A stretch of 64,000 nt of DNA from Brevinema andersonii (GTDB taxonomy: Bacteria > Spirochaetota > Brevinematia > Brevinematales > Brevinemataceae), in assembly GCF_900112165.1 (NCBI RefSeq), contig NZ_FOKY01000002.1, positions 1 to 64,000 on the forward strand, in the 5' to 3' direction. Below the pieces are notes generated by a model. That model saw only the letters and a program-made list of their open reading frames with translations, was not told where the DNA came from and ran no database searches. Shown piece after piece: positions 3 through 7,040 of this stretch. A program made the position numbers and the translations under genes. Within the stretch, counting starts at the first letter, position 1, and every line of letters starts with the position of its first letter.

Positions 3-1250
3 ACAAATGCGGTTTCTGAGTTGGCGGTGCGCAATTTGGATCGAACGAACATTATCCCCGTCTACCACACAAACTTGGTGACAAATATCGTGAACGTTGA
101 AACAACAAATACACTGAATAGAATTGTTGTTGAAAGTGTCACTAATATAATGCCTTCATATATTACTAACTACAGAACCAATATCATTAACATTGAGATC
201 ACTAATGAATTCAATCAGCCAGTATTGCGGGATTTCACAAATTTAATACCCATTTATCAAACAAATTATCGTACAAATATTGTCAATAGAGAAATAACAA
301 ATGCCATACATAATATTGTAACGAAAGATCAAACAAATGTAGTACCAATTTTGATTACAAATTATACAACTAAATTAAAAAATATTCGTATTACAAATAC
401 ACTAAATGATATAATCCTCACAGAACGAACAAATTTTATACCTATTTATTATACAAATTATCGTACAAATATTATCAATGTTCCGGTTACCAATGCAATG
501 AATGAACTGACAATACGTAGTGTAACAAATTTGACACCAATATATATTACGAATTATCAAGCAAATATTGAAAATGCTATAATTTCAAACAGTATAAACA
601 CGGTACAAGTAGATTTTAAAGATACGATAATTACTAATATTATTAATCAAGTAATAACAAATATATTAGATCAAATGATCACAAACCTAGAATCAACAAC
701 TAATATTAGTGTGCAGACCAACTATACTGAAGTTTTTGATGAATTTGGAGTATATACAAATATTATTATTATCAGTAATAATACCACAGAAGTTGAGCCA
801 TCGCCCATTGCCCTAAGAGATATACCAATAAGAATAGATCCACCGCAAAATGATTTCATTCAAGAACCAGAATATATTACTCCTATTGAAGAACCTCAAA
901 TATTAAGTTTTAACCAAGACGTTGCAAAGCTTCAAACAAAGGCAGCATCGTTGGCAGAAAAGGCAGCATCGGTTGCTGGAGGATATAGTTATCCTGAAAC
1001 AAAAGGCTACGTTGTAAGAATTGCACAGGTAAAAGATGTCACTATAGCTAATATCATTACCAAAGAAATTGCTAAAATAGACCGAAGTATTCCTGTAGGT
1101 ATTTATTTCAGAGATGATATATATTATGTAGAAGTTCGTAACCTTAAGGATTACGACTCTGCAAAAGAATTATCTCAATTTTTGTATAGGATGGGATACA
1201 AAGATACACAAATTTTTGAACGCTTTGAAGTTACAGAATATCAGGAGTAA
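3..1250 (+). CDS. Thr-Asn tandem-repeat protein with C-terminal SPOR-like domain (5' end outside window)
   Basis: The reading frame is open from the first full codon at position 3, so the TTG at 21 is probably internal and the gene starts upstream of the window. Six tandem 32-residue (96-bp) repeats run from 45 to 620. Their pattern is TNxxPIYxTNYRTNIxNxxITN, followed by about ten variable residues. Looser TN-rich sequence continues to about 790. A Pro/Glu-rich linker and a short Ala/Ser stretch follow. The last 70 or so residues (about 1000-1240) look like a SPOR domain, which binds denuded peptidoglycan in known families. An envelope or septal location is inferred. The stop lies three bases before mutS, with an AGGAG ribosome-binding site inside this gene's end. 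I do not recognise the repeat family. Confidence 0.8.
   Translation, partial: TNAVSELAVRNLDRTNIIPVYHTNLVTNIVNVETTNTLNRIVVESVTNIMPSYITNYRTNIINIEITNEFNQPVLRDFTNLIPIYQTNYRTNIVNREITNAIHNIVTKDQTNVVPILITNYTTKLKNIRITNTLNDIILTERTNFIPIYYTNYRTNIINVPVTNAMNELTIRSVTNLTPIYITNYQANIENAIISNSINTVQVDFKDTIITNIINQVITNILDQMITNLESTTNISVQTNYTEVFDEFGVYTNIIIISNNTTEVEPSPIALRDIPIRIDPPQNDFIQEPEYITPIEEPQILSFNQDVAKLQTKAASLAEKAASVAGGYSYPETKGYVVRIAQVKDVTIANIITKEIAKIDRSIPVGIYFRDDIYYVEVRNLKDYDSAKELSQFLYRMGYKDTQIFERFEVTEYQE
45..620 (+). repeat. Six 96-bp tandem repeats encoding 32-residue Thr-Asn units
   Basis: Units start at 45, 141, 237, 333, 429 and 525. Each begins with a Thr-Asn pair and carries further TN pairs at unit positions 9, 13 and 21, with small variations in units 4 and 6. 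The period is strict, with no insertions. DNA identity between units is moderate, so the repeats are old rather than freshly amplified. Confidence 0.9.
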
Positions 1251-1253
1251 GCT

Positions 1254-3794
1254 ATGACTCCCATGGAGCAGCAATATTTTTCCATCAAGCAAAACCATCA
1301 AGATAAAATTTTGCTCTTTAGGCTTGGAGATTTTTATGAATTATTCCAAGAAGATGCAGAAATAGCATCTCAAATTCTCAATATCGCCATGACAAAACGC
1401 CATGGTCGACCTATGTGCGGATTTCCATTTCATGCTTTGGATCAATATGCTTACAAACTTGTAGAAGCCGGGCATAAAGTGGCTATTTGCGAACAAACAG
1501 AAGAATCCTCTCAAACAAAAGGTATTGTAAAACGAGAAGTAGTATCTATTTTAACACAAGGAACATGGTCTGAAAATCCCTTACTTGATCAATCTATTAA
1601 TTCTTTTTTATCTGTTATTGCTTTCGAGCAAGGAATATTAAGTCTAATTTTTGTAGACATTGCAACAGGAGAATTAATTCTACGCACTTTTGAAGGCGAA
1701 AATCCTATTTCCTTCTTAAAAGATGAAATCTCACGTTATATGCCTGTTGAAATTATTTGTCCACAAAAATTCCTTGAACTTTTCAGCATCGAAGAGGAGC
1801 TAAAAGCAAAACAAAAATCACTTAGGATTATGCCAGAATCATTCTATAGAACAAATACTCTCTTTAATAAATATAAAAGCAAGCATGAAAGTTTCTTTGA
1901 GAATTTACACTTAAGTATTGAAAAGGCATTTATAGGTTTATTTTCTTATCTCATAGAAAACCATTTTTCCGAAGAACAAGTGAATCATTTAAGAGTGCCC
2001 TTAAAATACTACCAAACAGACACATTATTTATGAATAAAGATACATTAATGCACTTAGAGCTAACCGTAAACAACAAAGATTTATCCCATAAAGGTACTT
2101 TATTTTCTATATTAAACAAATGTAAAACAACTGCTGGTTCAAGACGATTGAGAAGATTATTAGCAGCTCCTTCAGCAATACTTGATGTTATTAGAAAAAT
2201 GCAATCCAGAACAGCCTATTTTATACAATTTGAAAGCAGTAATAATGGTATTTCTGATTTGCTGAAAGGTACAAGTGATTTGGATCGATTGTCTGCCCGA
2301 CTGATTACTGGAAAAATTCTTCCGCGGGAACTTTTAGCATTGGCAGATACTGTACAGAGAGCTGAAAAATTAAAAGATATCTTGAGGACAGCAGAACCTT
2401 TTATTGATTATTTGGCTGGTATACAAAATTTAAAAGATCTGTACAACCAAATTAACGAAACAATTAATCCAGATTGTAGTAATTCTATTGATGGTCAAGT
2501 TTTCTTACCTGGAACTAACAGTGAATTAGATGAACTAAAAGAAGTGCTTCACAATGCGAAAAGATTTCTAATAACTCTTCAAACAGAAGAAAAACTAAAA
2601 ACAGGAATCAGCAGCCTAAAAATTGGATATAACAAAATTTATGGCTACTATATTGAAGTCGGGAAAGCTTCGTCAAAAAACGTTCCATCACACTACAAAA
2701 GAAAACAAAGTCTCATCAATACAGAACGTTATACTATTCCAGAACTCGAGAATTTTGAAAACAAAATATTTAACGCTGAAGAATCTGTCCTTAGATTAGA
2801 ACGCCATCTTTACCAAAATTTAGTAATTAAGTTACAAGATTTCTACTCTAAACTTCTACCTGTTGCAGAATTCATTGCAGAAACTGACCTGCGGTTAGCT
2901 CTTGCTACCGTAGCAAAACAAAAATATTATACAGCACCTCTATTAACGGAAGATTTTTCATGGAATATTATTGATGGACGACATCCTGTTATTGAATCGC
3001 TTCTGAAAACTGAGCAATTTGTTGCCAATAACACTTATTTAGAAAAAAATAATAGTCATATTCTTATTGTGACAGGTCCAAACATGGCTGGAAAATCGAC
3101 TTATCTTCGTCAAAACGCACTCTTTGCAGTAATGGCACAAATTGGATCATATATTCCAGCAAGCTCGGCACAGTTAGGAATTGTTGATAAAATTTTCACT
3201 CGTATTGGAGCCTCTGATGATTTAGGGTCAGGGCGTTCAACTTTTTTCATGGAAATGCAGGAAGCAGCAGAAATTGTCGTACAAACCACGCCAAAAAGCT
3301 TGATCATTATGGATGAATTAGGACGAGGTACTTCCACTTCTGATGGCTTGGCAATTGCATGGGCTGTTTTGGAATATTTCTTATCTAATCCCGATAAAAA
3401 AGCTAAAATATTTTTCTCTACACATTATCACGAACTTACAAAATTAGAAAAAAATAAAGGCATTAAAACACTTTGTATGGCTGTACAAGAATACAATAAT
3501 AAACCTATTTTTCTAAGAAAAGTCATCGAAGGACATGCATCAAAAAGTTATGGTATACACGTTGCAGAAATGGCAGGGCTTAACCAAACAATTGTCACAC
3601 GAGCTTATAACATCCTGAATTCCCTAGAAGAAGGAACTTTTTTCAATTCGGAAGAAAATGAACTTCCTAATTTATTTACAAGTCTAACTCCTAAAAATTC
3701 AAAATTATACGACTTTATACAAAATATCAATCCTAACAAACTTACTCCTTTAGAAGCATTACAATTAATTTTTGAAATTAAGGAATTGTTATGA
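1254..3794 (+). CDS. mutS: DNA mismatch repair protein MutS
   Basis: MutS recognises base mismatches and small loops and starts mismatch repair with MutL. The 846-residue length is typical of MutS1. The N-terminal mismatch-recognition motif is present (G25-D-F-Y-E29, with the Phe and Glu that contact the mismatch). The ATPase Walker A is near residue 608 (GPNMAGKST), followed by the Walker B DELGRGTST and the STHYHEL signature. The ATG at 1254 has an AGGAG site seven bases upstream, and the protein starts like other MutS proteins (TPMEQQY). The stop overlaps the next gene in an ATGA arrangement, suggesting translational coupling. No mutL is visible in the window. Confidence 0.97.
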   Translation: MTPMEQQYFSIKQNHQDKILLFRLGDFYELFQEDAEIASQILNIAMTKRHGRPMCGFPFHALDQYAYKLVEAGHKVAICEQTEESSQTKGIVKREVVSILTQGTWSENPLLDQSINSFLSVIAFEQGILSLIFVDIATGELILRTFEGENPISFLKDEISRYMPVEIICPQKFLELFSIEEELKAKQKSLRIMPESFYRTNTLFNKYKSKHESFFENLHLSIEKAFIGLFSYLIENHFSEEQVNHLRVPLKYYQTDTLFMNKDTLMHLELTVNNKDLSHKGTLFSILNKCKTTAGSRRLRRLLAAPSAILDVIRKMQSRTAYFIQFESSNNGISDLLKGTSDLDRLSARLITGKILPRELLALADTVQRAEKLKDILRTAEPFIDYLAGIQNLKDLYNQINETINPDCSNSIDGQVFLPGTNSELDELKEVLHNAKRFLITLQTEEKLKTGISSLKIGYNKIYGYYIEVGKASSKNVPSHYKRKQSLINTERYTIPELENFENKIFNAEESVLRLERHLYQNLVIKLQDFYSKLLPVAEFIAETDLRLALATVAKQKYYTAPLLTEDFSWNIIDGRHPVIESLLKTEQFVANNTYLEKNNSHILIVTGPNMAGKSTYLRQNALFAVMAQIGSYIPASSAQLGIVDKIFTRIGASDDLGSGRSTFFMEMQEAAEIVVQTTPKSLIIMDELGRGTSTSDGLAIAWAVLEYFLSNPDKKAKIFFSTHYHELTKLEKNKGIKTLCMAVQEYNNKPIFLRKVIEGHASKSYGIHVAEMAGLNQTIVTRAYNILNSLEEGTFFNSEENELPNLFTSLTPKNSKLYDFIQNINPNKLTPLEALQLIFEIKELL

Positions 3795-4492
3795 ATTCTA
3801 ATCATGCTTTACCTACTTTCCATGCGTTAGCTGTTGGTGTACAGCATATTTATCCCCAAATATTTATAGAAACAGCAAAATTTTATAATCATTATGTTTC
3901 CATGTCTTCTGTAACTGATCAAATTTTAACGGATCGATATTTTCATACTTTTCTTATTTCTTACAGTCACCCACGATCGTTACATTTATTGTACCAATAT
4001 CAAATACATTTCCCACAAATGCTATGTTTATTGATAACAGAAAGTCCTGAACAAATATCAGAATTATTGGACAGCTCTCATTTATTTTGGCAGATCGATA
4101 CTCATACCCCAAAAAGCACAGAATACAGTCTTCACCAAATGTGGAGATGGATCCGTTATACCGGATATAGAAAAATCGGCATTGATGATTCTACAATTTC
4201 TGTTGCTGGTGGAACTTTATCCTTAATTAATGAAACTTTTGAAAAAAATAGTATAAAATATTCTCTCACTAATAAGCAAGTTGCAATCTTAAAAATTTTA
4301 TTGGAATATCGAGGAGAAATTGTATCAAGAAATGTCCTTCTAGATCGTATTTGGTCTTCAGAAAAGTTTGTGACAGATCGCGTCATTGATACTAATATTG
4401 TAGCTCTGAGAAAAATGTTCATGGACAATGGTAGAAATCCACAATATTTACAGACTATTTTTGGTCAAGGTTATCGTTTGATATGTGAATGA
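3791..4492 (+). CDS. OmpR-type winged-helix regulator with degenerate receiver domain
   Basis: The C-terminal half (about residues 140-233) is a clear OmpR/PhoB winged-helix DNA-binding domain: LTNKQVAILKILLEYRGEIVSR, then RVIDTNIVALRKMF and the final QTIFGQGYRLI. The N-terminal 120 residues have receiver length and spacing but not the chemistry. The strand that normally ends in the phospho-accepting Asp reads FLISYSHP, placing Ser57 there, and the acidic pair of strand 1 is absent. It is therefore probably a phosphorylation-independent regulator. It overlaps mutS by four bases. No histidine kinase is adjacent. Its 3' end overlaps the convergent minus-strand gene by 38 bp. The target genes are unknown. 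Confidence 0.8.
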   Translation: MNSNHALPTFHALAVGVQHIYPQIFIETAKFYNHYVSMSSVTDQILTDRYFHTFLISYSHPRSLHLLYQYQIHFPQMLCLLITESPEQISELLDSSHLFWQIDTHTPKSTEYSLHQMWRWIRYTGYRKIGIDDSTISVAGGTLSLINETFEKNSIKYSLTNKQVAILKILLEYRGEIVSRNVLLDRIWSSEKFVTDRVIDTNIVALRKMFMDNGRNPQYLQTIFGQGYRLICE

Positions 4493-5435
4493 CATATTCA
4501 TCCAATGCTTTATACAATCTTCGCAAGTCATGCTCCGTATGGTATGGAGAAAAAAATAATATCAAATCATTTGCAATAATGCCTCGCTTACAAAAAAAAT
4601 TAAAATCTAATGGCTTTTTAGCGATTGCAAATCCATTAAATGAATTTAAGAAATGATGACATACTTTCAGATTTTTCCTTTTCATTTGCTTTTTTAAATA
4701 TTTAGCACCCTCCATAAATAGAATTGTCTCATAAATTGACAATCTATTCTTATCAACACAATTATTCTGATTTCCAATTAAAACCGTCAATGGTTTTCCA
4801 GCAAAAAAATAGCTTAATAAAATCGGATGCTTACAATTAAAATTTAACTGTTGCCTAAAAAAAAATCGATTATATACTACTAGTTTTTTATGAGCATAAA
4901 AACGATCTGCATCAAACAGAGAACCATCTTCAAAAATCGGTTCATAAATTAAAAGATCACTATAAGTGTTTTCATAACAATAAGTTACATCAATAAACTC
5001 TCTTAACGGCTCTAACATTCGATATATATAGTCACTAGAACAAGCAATACTTATTTTATTAGTATTTTTGATATCGTTTAAAAAACTAAGAACTGCATAT
5101 ATAGGATCACTAAAAAATGAAACTCCATTTTGAGTTAATTCTTCCCAATACCGATAAGCTTTTAATAAAAACTTATTATAACAACATGCATGTCCTATGC
5201 CGCTGGACAAAGCATTTTTATATATTTTAGTCAAAACTCTAGGAGTATAACTAAAAGAAATTTCTCCATTTTGTAAATTAAAATCTGTATACTTAAATCC
5301 ATCAATATCATATAAATAAACACCTTTAATTTTTTTTAATACTAAAGGAATTTGATCATTTGAAATACTCATTTTAGACAAATAAATATGTGTATTATGC
5401 TGACTAAATGTTATAGGATCAGGAAAATTAGACAT
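4455..5435 (-). CDS. Class III aminotransferase-like (GSAM-like) pseudoenzyme
   Basis: The 326-residue protein retains landmarks of the glutamate-1-semialdehyde aminotransferase/class III fold. These are GVYLYDIDGFKYTDF at residues 38-52, LLIYEPIFEDG at 161-171, and a C-terminal stretch (RGIIANDLILFFSPYHTEHD) matching the usual end of the family. The catalytic features are gone. The PLP-binding D-E-V segment reads VVYNRFFFRQQ (184-197), and the segment that should hold the Schiff-base lysine reads LLSYFFAGKPL, with Tyr at the Lys position. It is about 100 residues shorter than GSAM, having lost most of the GTEA to YHG region. The frame is intact. A non-catalytic function or early decay are both possible. 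It is transcribed convergently with the regulator at 3791. Confidence 0.6.
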   Translation of the reverse strand: MSNFPDPITFSQHNTHIYLSKMSISNDQIPLVLKKIKGVYLYDIDGFKYTDFNLQNGEISFSYTPRVLTKIYKNALSSGIGHACCYNKFLLKAYRYWEELTQNGVSFFSDPIYAVLSFLNDIKNTNKISIACSSDYIYRMLEPLREFIDVTYCYENTYSDLLIYEPIFEDGSLFDADRFYAHKKLVVYNRFFFRQQLNFNCKHPILLSYFFAGKPLTVLIGNQNNCVDKNRLSIYETILFMEGAKYLKKQMKRKNLKVCHHFLNSFNGFAIAKKPLDFNFFCKRGIIANDLILFFSPYHTEHDLRRLYKALDEYVIHISNDNLDQK

Positions 5436-5453
5436 ATATTATTCCATAAAAAC

Positions 5454-5476
5454 AACACCCCTTAAAAGGGGGTGTT
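5454..5476 (-). terminator. Rho-independent terminator after rny
   Basis: AACACCCC at 5454-5461 pairs with GGGGTGTT at 5469-5476. On the minus strand the hairpin lies just past the rny stop and is followed by a short T run (GTTTTTA). It also separates rny from the following minus-strand aminotransferase-like gene. Confidence 0.8.
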
Positions 5477-5492
5477 TTCATTTTTATTTATT

Positions 5493-7040
5493 CTAACGAG
5501 CATACTCTATAACTCTCATTTCACGAATTAGAGTTACTTTTATTTGTCCAGGATATTGCATATTATCTTCTATTTTTTTAGCTATTTCTCGAGCGATAAT
5601 ATATGCACGCTCATCAGGCACAGTTTCTGCTGTTACAAACACCCGTACTTCACGGCCAGCCTGTATTGCGTAGGCTTTTTCAACTCCTTCACAAGAAAGA
5701 GATAGCTCTTCTAACTGCTGTAATCGCTTAATATAGTCATCAAAAGATTCTCGTCTAGCTCCCGGTCGAGCAGCAGAAATTGCATCACATAGCATAACTA
5801 GAGAACCCTCAATAAAGCGACATTCTTCTTCTCCATGATGACAAGCAATTGCATTAACAATATTTTCAGGCAGACCAAATTTTCTAGCAATTTCCGCTCC
5901 TAATAAAGCATGACCACCCTCACCTGTAGATTTAATTGTTTTACCAATATCATGAAGTAGACATGCAATCTTTGCACTTTCAACATCGATCTTTAATTCT
6001 CCAGCAAGCATACCAGCAATATTCGCAACTTCTATCGAATGCTTATATACATTTTGACCATAACTGGTGCGATATTTTAATCTACCAATATAAGGATAAA
6101 TACCTCTAGGAAGATTCACTTTTAAATCTTGACAAGCTTGCTTTCCTGCTTCAACAATATCAATATTAATATCATTTTGAACTTTTGAAACAACTTCCTC
6201 GATCCTAGTAGGATGAATGCGACCATCTTGGACTAGCTTCTCCAATGCAATACGTGCAATCTCACGGCGATAAGGATCAAATGAAGAAATAACCACTACT
6301 TCAGGAGTATCATCGATAATCAGATCTACTCCTGAAATCGACTCAAATGACCTAATATTACGTCCTTCACGACCTATAATTCTACCTTTCATATCATCAC
6401 TAGGTAAATTCACAGTAGTAATAAATTTTTCTGTACTTACTTCTACAGCATTACGTTCCAAACTGGTGATAAGAATAGAACGTGCTCTTTGATCAGCTTC
6501 TTCACGCGCTTCTTCTTCAATTTTTTGTATTAAGGGCACAGCTTCCGCATGAGCTTCCGAAAGTATTTCATCAATAAGTGACTGCTTTGCATCTGACGCA
6601 GTCATACCAGCTACTTTTTCTAAGGATTTGATATGTTCTTGCTTTGCATCTAATAATTCTTTCTGCAATTTTTGAACTTCTTCCTCTTTTTGTAGTAAAT
6701 GGCGTTCTTTTTTTTCTATACTTTCTGTTTTTTTATCTAAGGTATCTTCTTTTTGAACTAACCGTCGTTGCATTTGCTGTAAATCATTTTGCCGATCTCT
6801 ATACTCTTTGTCAAACTGCTTACGTTCTTCAAAAATTTTATCTTTTGCTTCAAGTAAAATCTCTTTTTTACGGGATTCCGCTTGTTTTTCAGCATCTTCT
6901 AAGAGCTTCTGAACCTTTTGTTCTGCAGAACTGCTTGATCGTTGAGCAATAAAAACACGTACAATATATCCTATTACAATTCCAATTAATGCAACTAAAC
7001 TTATTGTTATAAAAGAGATACCTGTCACTACTTGTTCCAT
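5493..7040 (-). CDS. rny: Ribonuclease Y
   Basis: RNase Y is a membrane-anchored endoribonuclease that initiates mRNA decay. The 515-residue protein has the expected order: one N-terminal transmembrane helix (about 8-30), a long coiled coil rich in Lys and Glu (about 35-190), a KH domain with GRIIGREGRNIRSFE near residue 220, and an HD domain with LLHDIGK near residue 360. Family length is about 520. It has its own consensus promoter upstream (7121-7149) and a terminator downstream, so it is probably a single-gene unit. Confidence 0.97.
   Translation of the reverse strand: MEQVVTGISFITISLVALIGIVIGYIVRVFIAQRSSSSAEQKVQKLLEDAEKQAESRKKEILLEAKDKIFEERKQFDKEYRDRQNDLQQMQRRLVQKEDTLDKKTESIEKKERHLLQKEEEVQKLQKELLDAKQEHIKSLEKVAGMTASDAKQSLIDEILSEAHAEAVPLIQKIEEEAREEADQRARSILITSLERNAVEVSTEKFITTVNLPSDDMKGRIIGREGRNIRSFESISGVDLIIDDTPEVVVISSFDPYRREIARIALEKLVQDGRIHPTRIEEVVSKVQNDINIDIVEAGKQACQDLKVNLPRGIYPYIGRLKYRTSYGQNVYKHSIEVANIAGMLAGELKIDVESAKIACLLHDIGKTIKSTGEGGHALLGAEIARKFGLPENIVNAIACHHGEEECRFIEGSLVMLCDAISAARPGARRESFDDYIKRLQQLEELSLSCEGVEKAYAIQAGREVRVFVTAETVPDERAYIIAREIAKKIEDNMQYPGQIKVTLIREMRVIEYAR

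Follow-up and report, generated by a model that had tools for sequence, protein, structure and literature searches.

The pseudoaminotransferase gene and its surroundings

The window, the whole 64,000-nucleotide stretch of Brevinema andersonii DNA analyzed in this study, contains an unbroken open reading frame of 326 codons that runs from 5435 to 4455 on the minus strand (4455–5435) and starts with ATG behind a GGA-containing site. We designated it a pseudo-class-III aminotransferase gene (326 aa) on the basis of its ORF and translation, homologues, fold, and position in a phylogenetic tree. The initial annotation had described the frame as intact without stating its strand; its extent was confirmed exactly, and the landmarks GVYLYDIDGFKYTDF, VVYNRFFF, and SPYHTEHD were each found in the translation.

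An RNase Y (rny)-like gene, named by sequence recognition, lies directly upstream on the same strand (5493–7040, minus), and the 57-bp gap that separates the two genes holds a terminator-like hairpin, read from the sequence (AACACCCCC-TTTTAA-GGGGTGTT followed by a T run; 5452–5480, minus). The same arrangement, with rny adjoining the gene on the same strand, is seen in order-level relatives from f3 and f4, and in genome G001 one ORF lies between them. An operon with rny was rejected because of the intervening hairpin and the additional ORF in G001.

At its 3' end the gene shares 38 bp with a convergent gene for a winged-helix regulator (3791–4492, plus strand). This neighbor is conserved in families f1 and f3, and not as a neighbor outside them; given this narrow conservation and the opposite orientation, we rejected a functional link, and the association is probably synteny only. 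The regulator is of the OmpR/PhoB type, and Pfam recognizes only its C-terminal DNA-binding domain (Trans_reg_C). Because the gene at the same position in f3 relatives opens with sequence resembling a complete receiver domain, the receiver of the Brevinemataceae protein looks degenerate. Elsewhere in the window, upstream of mutS, positions 3–1250 (plus strand) encode a protein of TN-rich repeats (...ITNYRTNIINVxVTNAMN...), and a related ORF occupies the matching place in Brevinemataceae relatives.

Homology and predicted fold

The initial annotation had proposed a class III aminotransferase fold, which family profile matches and structure comparison support. Taken singly, the window protein matched Pfam Aminotran_3 (PF00202) weakly and over residues 25–78 only (E 0.026), its 13.7 bits not reaching the gathering cut-off of 30.5 bits. 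Matches to GSAM-type NCBIfam models were at about 1e-3, and the score against the hemL equivalog was 12.4 bits, which did not reach the equivalog score of 527.3 bits. A profile of 18 family members searched against the PDB matched GSAM-type enzymes at 1e-18 to 1e-16; the best match was the aminotransferase domain of mycosubtilin synthase (2.7e-18), with GSAMs at 1e-17, and the N-terminal and C-terminal stretches were in register with the solved class III enzymes.

Two AF2 models were made, one from family rows (pTM 0.60) and one with canonical class III rows added (pTM 0.67), with low confidence over the N-terminal ~65 residues in both. Foldseek matched both to fold-type I aminotransferases (probability 1.0 for both). 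BioA-type class III enzymes were on top for the second model (E 2e-8), in which the canonical rows may bias the outcome toward class III; the first model, made without canonical rows, still matched the fold. The enzyme 2eo5 was matched at a TM of 0.60 by query length, and the GabR and PdxR domains as well as SPT were also among the matches.

Homologues were present in three genomes of the window's family at 38–39% identity (same-family search) and in seven same-order genomes at 28–31% identity over most of the length, three more matching locally. Their frames are intact and of similar length in nearly all cases. Full-length retention, as the gene was first described, is not quite accurate: at 326 aa the product is ~100 aa shorter than canonical enzymes, the middle of the PLP domain having been cut back.

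Loss of the PLP chemistry

We aligned the window protein and its dead relatives with nine canonical enzymes, leaving out the short Spirochaetia forms, whose large domain has shrunk too far to be aligned. The loss of the DEV motif (VVYNRFFF) noted at the outset was reproduced, with Val187-Tyr188 (4872–4877, minus strand) falling at the place of the cofactor-binding Asp-Glu. The Schiff-base lysine is also missing as proposed, but it is not replaced by Tyr: the column holds Ser208 (4812–4814, minus), and Tyr209 is the next codon (4809–4811). Not mentioned in the initial annotation were the change of the former PLP-phosphate loop, residues 106–114 (5094–5120, minus), where SFFSDPIYA replaces xxxNSGTEA (NSGTEA to FSDPIYA), and the deletion of the YHG stacking segment.

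No aligned sequence of the pseudo-family has Lys in the Schiff-base column. At the D-E position, relatives of the window protein have V/E, I/H, or F/E, and a few distant members retain D-E, still without the Lys. The least eroded sequence, L028 (G030), reads DEEQTGFR with Thr at the Lys position; f8 members retain DE with Ser for Lys; Brevinematales relatives read VENRTAFR or FEGRTAFR; and in the window protein and its family-level neighbors the motif is fully gone. As aligned, these sequences form a graded series of motif loss from L028 through f8 and the Brevinematales relatives to the window.

Conservation peaks at residues 36–80 and 281–307, and the former active-site segments are variable or deleted. 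The N-terminal block (residues 36–80, KKIKGVYLYDIDGFKYTDFNLQNGE...KNALSSG; 5196–5330, minus), where family conservation is highest, contains Y42, D43, D51, F52, G57, and K73, and the C-terminal small-domain block (residues 285–307, GIIANDLILFFSPYHTEHDLRRL; 4515–4583, minus) shows the conservation seen in canonical class III enzymes. Invariant polar residues include, in window numbering, D43, D51, K73, S296, and H299. The family thus resembles GSAM/HemL and other class III enzymes (PF00202), its best profile and sequence matches, in its fold, in the N-terminal GxYLYDxDGxxYxDF...GH hairpin, and in the C-terminal SxxHTxxD(I/L)xxL element. It differs from them in lacking the DEV Asp/Glu, the Schiff-base Lys (LGKxxGGG), the SGT phosphate loop, and the YHG segment (deleted), in its length (~260–340 aa versus ~430 aa), and in the sub-cut-off Pfam score of the window protein. 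The window gene is very likely a member of this dead-enzyme family.

Age and selection

Estimates of dN/dS by NG86 clearly indicate purifying selection: two pairs inside one Brevinematales genus gave 0.15 and 0.16, a pair from Brevinemataceae 0.20, and a Borreliaceae-like pair 0.21. YN00 values were below these, with dS saturated in some. The gene evolves faster than rny (0.02–0.04) and mutS. In a tree of 53 sequences, unrooted and built from divergent rows, one branch (99/97) divides 34 dead from 19 canonical sequences, and L028 is the dead sequence closest to the canonical side. Because a single branch makes this division, the dead sequences may, as far as the tree indicates, share one origin.

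Very recent decay, one of the two explanations first offered for the gene, is refuted by the syntenic dead orthologues in the family and order, the dN/dS of ~0.15–0.2, and the dead relatives across the phylum. A gene inactivated not long ago and on its way to being lost would fit the low GC observed here (26.7% against 34.8% for the window) and the fast change relative to rny and mutS, but the frame is intact, dN/dS is far below 1, and dead orthologues of like design occur throughout the order and phylum, so that this explanation is barely conceivable. The family is ancient and under purifying selection, and very likely comprises pseudoenzymes that derive from a GSAM/BioA-like class III aminotransferase. 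The data support the other explanation, in which a dead class-III-like fold has been retained to do a non-catalytic job.

Distribution and gene neighborhoods

Searches of the phylum detected dead members in many Spirochaetota families. In Brevinematales, the orthologues keep the synteny and none has the Schiff-base Lys. Single-copy members of 260–310 aa occur in f36 (genomes of 0.9–1.8 Mb) and f22, which are apparently Borreliaceae and Treponemataceae, and the family persists in genomes of 0.9 Mb (Borreliaceae-like) and 1.1 Mb (Treponema-like). When the long forms of Brevinematia were compared with the short ones of Spirochaetia by hhalign, the profiles matched at E 1.4e-18 over ~90 N-terminal columns, the link between the two forms being drawn mainly from these columns, synteny, and, within other lineages, pairing with the small membrane protein SmTM (see below). 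In f14 genomes (probably Brachyspira), the matches listed were only of 450–490 aa, the size of a canonical enzyme. Searching outside the spirochaetes with the Brevinematales alignment, we found no dead members, only local matches to ordinary-looking class III enzymes.

The genes around the family differ among lineages. In the f36 and f22 genomes, uvrD-gatC-gatA-gatB is followed by the dead gene and then by rplM-rpsI-eno at L072, and gatB directly precedes the dead gene at L088, L089, and L201; uvrD does so, often overlapping, in other families (L079, L083, L193, and L222). RNase Y-like genes lie ~1–1.5 kb from the dead gene in three Treponema-like genomes. Since these neighbors (uvrD, gatCAB, rplM/rpsI, and rny) are housekeeping genes, the neighborhoods suggest a core cell function rather than one in amino-acid metabolism. 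At L024 (G027), a family member is located between an ftsW-like gene and recognizable murG-ddl-ftsQ-ftsA-ftsZ genes, and in class-level relatives of f5 (L038–L041 and L027) a GspE/PilB-like ATPase gene directly precedes it.

FlhA was present in all 149 of the first-drawn phylum genomes, so presence or absence in that set says nothing on a flagellar role. FlhA was not matched in five near-complete f49 genomes. One of these, G223, retains the dead aminotransferase beside a uvrD-like gene (it was not recognized in the other four), which indicates that flagella are not required there and makes a strictly flagellar role unlikely.

A small membrane protein encoded next to the dead aminotransferase

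In many lineages, including most of those outside the window's class, the gene directly downstream, on the same strand, encodes an undescribed protein of ~100 aa with about three hydrophobic helices, which we call SmTM. A Pfam search with one member gave nothing above the cut-off, and other members gave scattered weak matches. A profile seeded from pseudoaminotransferase neighborhoods was later searched genome-wide in 198 genomes and gave one match each in 43, of which 42 are credible; the match in G004 (E 1.7e-4) was rejected because it lies inside an 850-aa frame.

Placement of the 42 matches was counted from coordinates, with G164 left out. SmTM lies directly downstream of a recognized dead aminotransferase in 32 cases, covering 10 families (f6, f8, f11, f19, f22, f27, f31, f38, f41, and f42). 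One ORF separates the two genes in G072, and in G083 SmTM follows a fragment at a contig end. In four genomes (G022, G034, G045, and G055) it lies downstream of a very divergent candidate of 410–555 aa; these candidates matched the family in a profile comparison only, at no better than E 1.4e-4 with a probability of 52%. The three remaining matches lie elsewhere, beside an acyl-CoA ligase in G074 and G168 and unlinked in G176. A further search added four adjacent pairs (G199, G202, G205, and G214), f48 being new and raising the count to at least 11 families, and one unlinked SmTM (G211).

The divergent f21/f10 candidates upstream of SmTM (L186 6398–7660, L187 2800–4314, L188 4273–5505, and L189 6171–7838) carry a motif, ILDGSYSDF...LFGDN, that looks like the wreck of a DEV...LGK site. 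In f33 (L183 and L195), SmTM follows an acyl-CoA ligase-like gene in place of the dead aminotransferase.

The profile search did not find SmTM in the window's genome, in the other Brevinematia tested, or in Borreliaceae-like genomes. A hidden copy in the window's genome (G000) was also rejected, the best match having E 0.027 and an internal stop. The conserved adjacency suggests that, where SmTM is present, it and the dead aminotransferase form one membrane-associated complex. Given that SmTM went undetected in the window's genome and class, the membrane part may not apply to the window copy.

Discussion

The protein keeps its N-terminal beta-hairpin/helix and its C-terminal small domain; the large domain, where PLP would bind, has been eroded or shortened. 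In class III structures, the regions corresponding to residues 36–80 and 281–307 are N-terminal and small-domain parts that contribute to the dimer interface. With these interface parts conserved and the active-site region variable or missing, the protein is more probably a binding platform than a sensing pocket or an enzyme of a new type. We give about an even chance to the idea that the dead spirochaete pseudoenzyme is a protein-binding scaffold, membrane-docked where SmTM exists. It would be a cytosolic aminotransferase-like platform, probably dimeric, that binds other proteins instead of doing chemistry, and SmTM would dock it at the inner membrane in the lineages that have this partner. 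In Brevinematia and Borreliaceae-like genomes, the platform would operate without a recognizable SmTM, perhaps with another membrane partner; for the window's Brevinematia copy, we would argue for the scaffold part alone. A broader proposal, that the dead aminotransferase and SmTM constitute an undescribed ancestral core membrane complex of spirochaetes, of which the Brevinematia and Borreliaceae copies are membrane-partner-less derivatives, is possible but somewhat doubtful.

Among the non-catalytic roles suggested by the initial annotation (sensor, scaffold, and ligand binding), the scaffold fits better and a ligand-binding sensor less well because conservation resides in the small-domain/interface part and not in the former active site. 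In a sensor, the old cleft would bind a small metabolite (other than covalently bound PLP) and relay a conformational change to SmTM or another partner in the manner of MocR/GabR. The retained fold, the GabR and PdxR domains among the Foldseek matches, and the pairing with a membrane protein, which would suit signaling, are in keeping with such a role. However, conservation is lowest in the segments of the old active site, some of which are deleted, the short members (~260 aa) miss much of the large domain, and the likeness to MocR, GabR, and PdxR ends at an aminotransferase fold put to non-metabolic use: these regulators retain the PLP lysine and are fused to a DNA-binding domain, and the dead family has neither. 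We thus consider a sensor unlikely. A new PLP-independent catalytic activity on the old scaffold would account for the purifying selection and for some invariant polar residues (D43, D51, K73, S296, and H299), but these residues lie in small-domain/interface segments and are conserved in canonical enzymes too, and no new conserved cluster appears elsewhere, which leaves this activity decidedly improbable.

The gene neighborhoods raise the further idea of an accessory factor of a neighboring housekeeping machine, namely RNase Y in Brevinematia or GatCAB/UvrD in Spirochaetia. The immediate same-strand contact with rny in the window, f3, and f4, the RNase Y-like genes near the three Treponema-like loci, and the uvrD or gatB gene that abuts it on the upstream side, often with an overlap, in families of the Borreliaceae-like and Treponema-like genomes and in others would agree with it. 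The neighbor changes with the lineage, however, and may reflect ancestral synteny only; the terminator-like hairpin parts rny from the gene in the window, and other lineages have pilB-like or division-cluster-like neighbors. This role is improbable. A heterodimer in which the protein is the inactive subunit beside an active class III aminotransferase has a model in eukaryotic serine palmitoyltransferase, whose Lys-less subunit SPTLC1 (LCB1) is a dead fold-type I homologue associated with the small membrane subunits ssSPT. SPT is among the Foldseek matches, and the dimer-interface part is conserved here. SPTLC1, however, belongs to the alpha-oxoamine synthase subfamily and has an active paralogue as its partner, and a class III partner was not found in several genomes studied here. 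The PF00202 search matched in 14 of 14 control genomes. For the window's genome, the Brevinemataceae genomes G001 and G002, and four Borreliaceae-like genomes (G236, G228, G133, and G233) it gave only the dead gene, below the cut-off, and no canonical Aminotran_3; G003 (Brevinemataceae) and G068 gave no match at all. These genomes are 79–99% complete, the window's being 95% complete. With no canonical class III enzyme found in the window's genome, within that completeness, the pseudoaminotransferase is unlikely to be the dead partner in a heterodimer of this kind there, and the explanation as a whole is very improbable; a partner may come from another fold-type I class.

A literature search found no paper on a spirochaete pseudo-class-III enzyme. 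From gene order, the dead aminotransferase of Borrelia would presumably be bb0340. That number is at variance with two papers in which bb0340 is the name of a methionine sulfoxide reductase, and in one paper Tp0679 is the name used for TmpB. The papers that use bb0340 or Tp0679 (both tentative as locus numbers here) give no function for the dead aminotransferase family. Pseudoenzymes as such are already known; the novelty here lies in how old and widespread the family is, in its design with the interface kept and the PLP domain eroded, and in its pairing with SmTM.

Automatic annotation of these genes as aminotransferases would be wrong, also where metabolic models are built for organisms lacking any other class III enzyme. 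Uncharacterized conserved proteins that spirochaetes share, and that persist even where the genome is reduced, as in the Borreliaceae and Treponema type, are candidates for core functions peculiar to the phylum, and the dead class III family together with one small membrane protein provides a concrete, testable gene pair.
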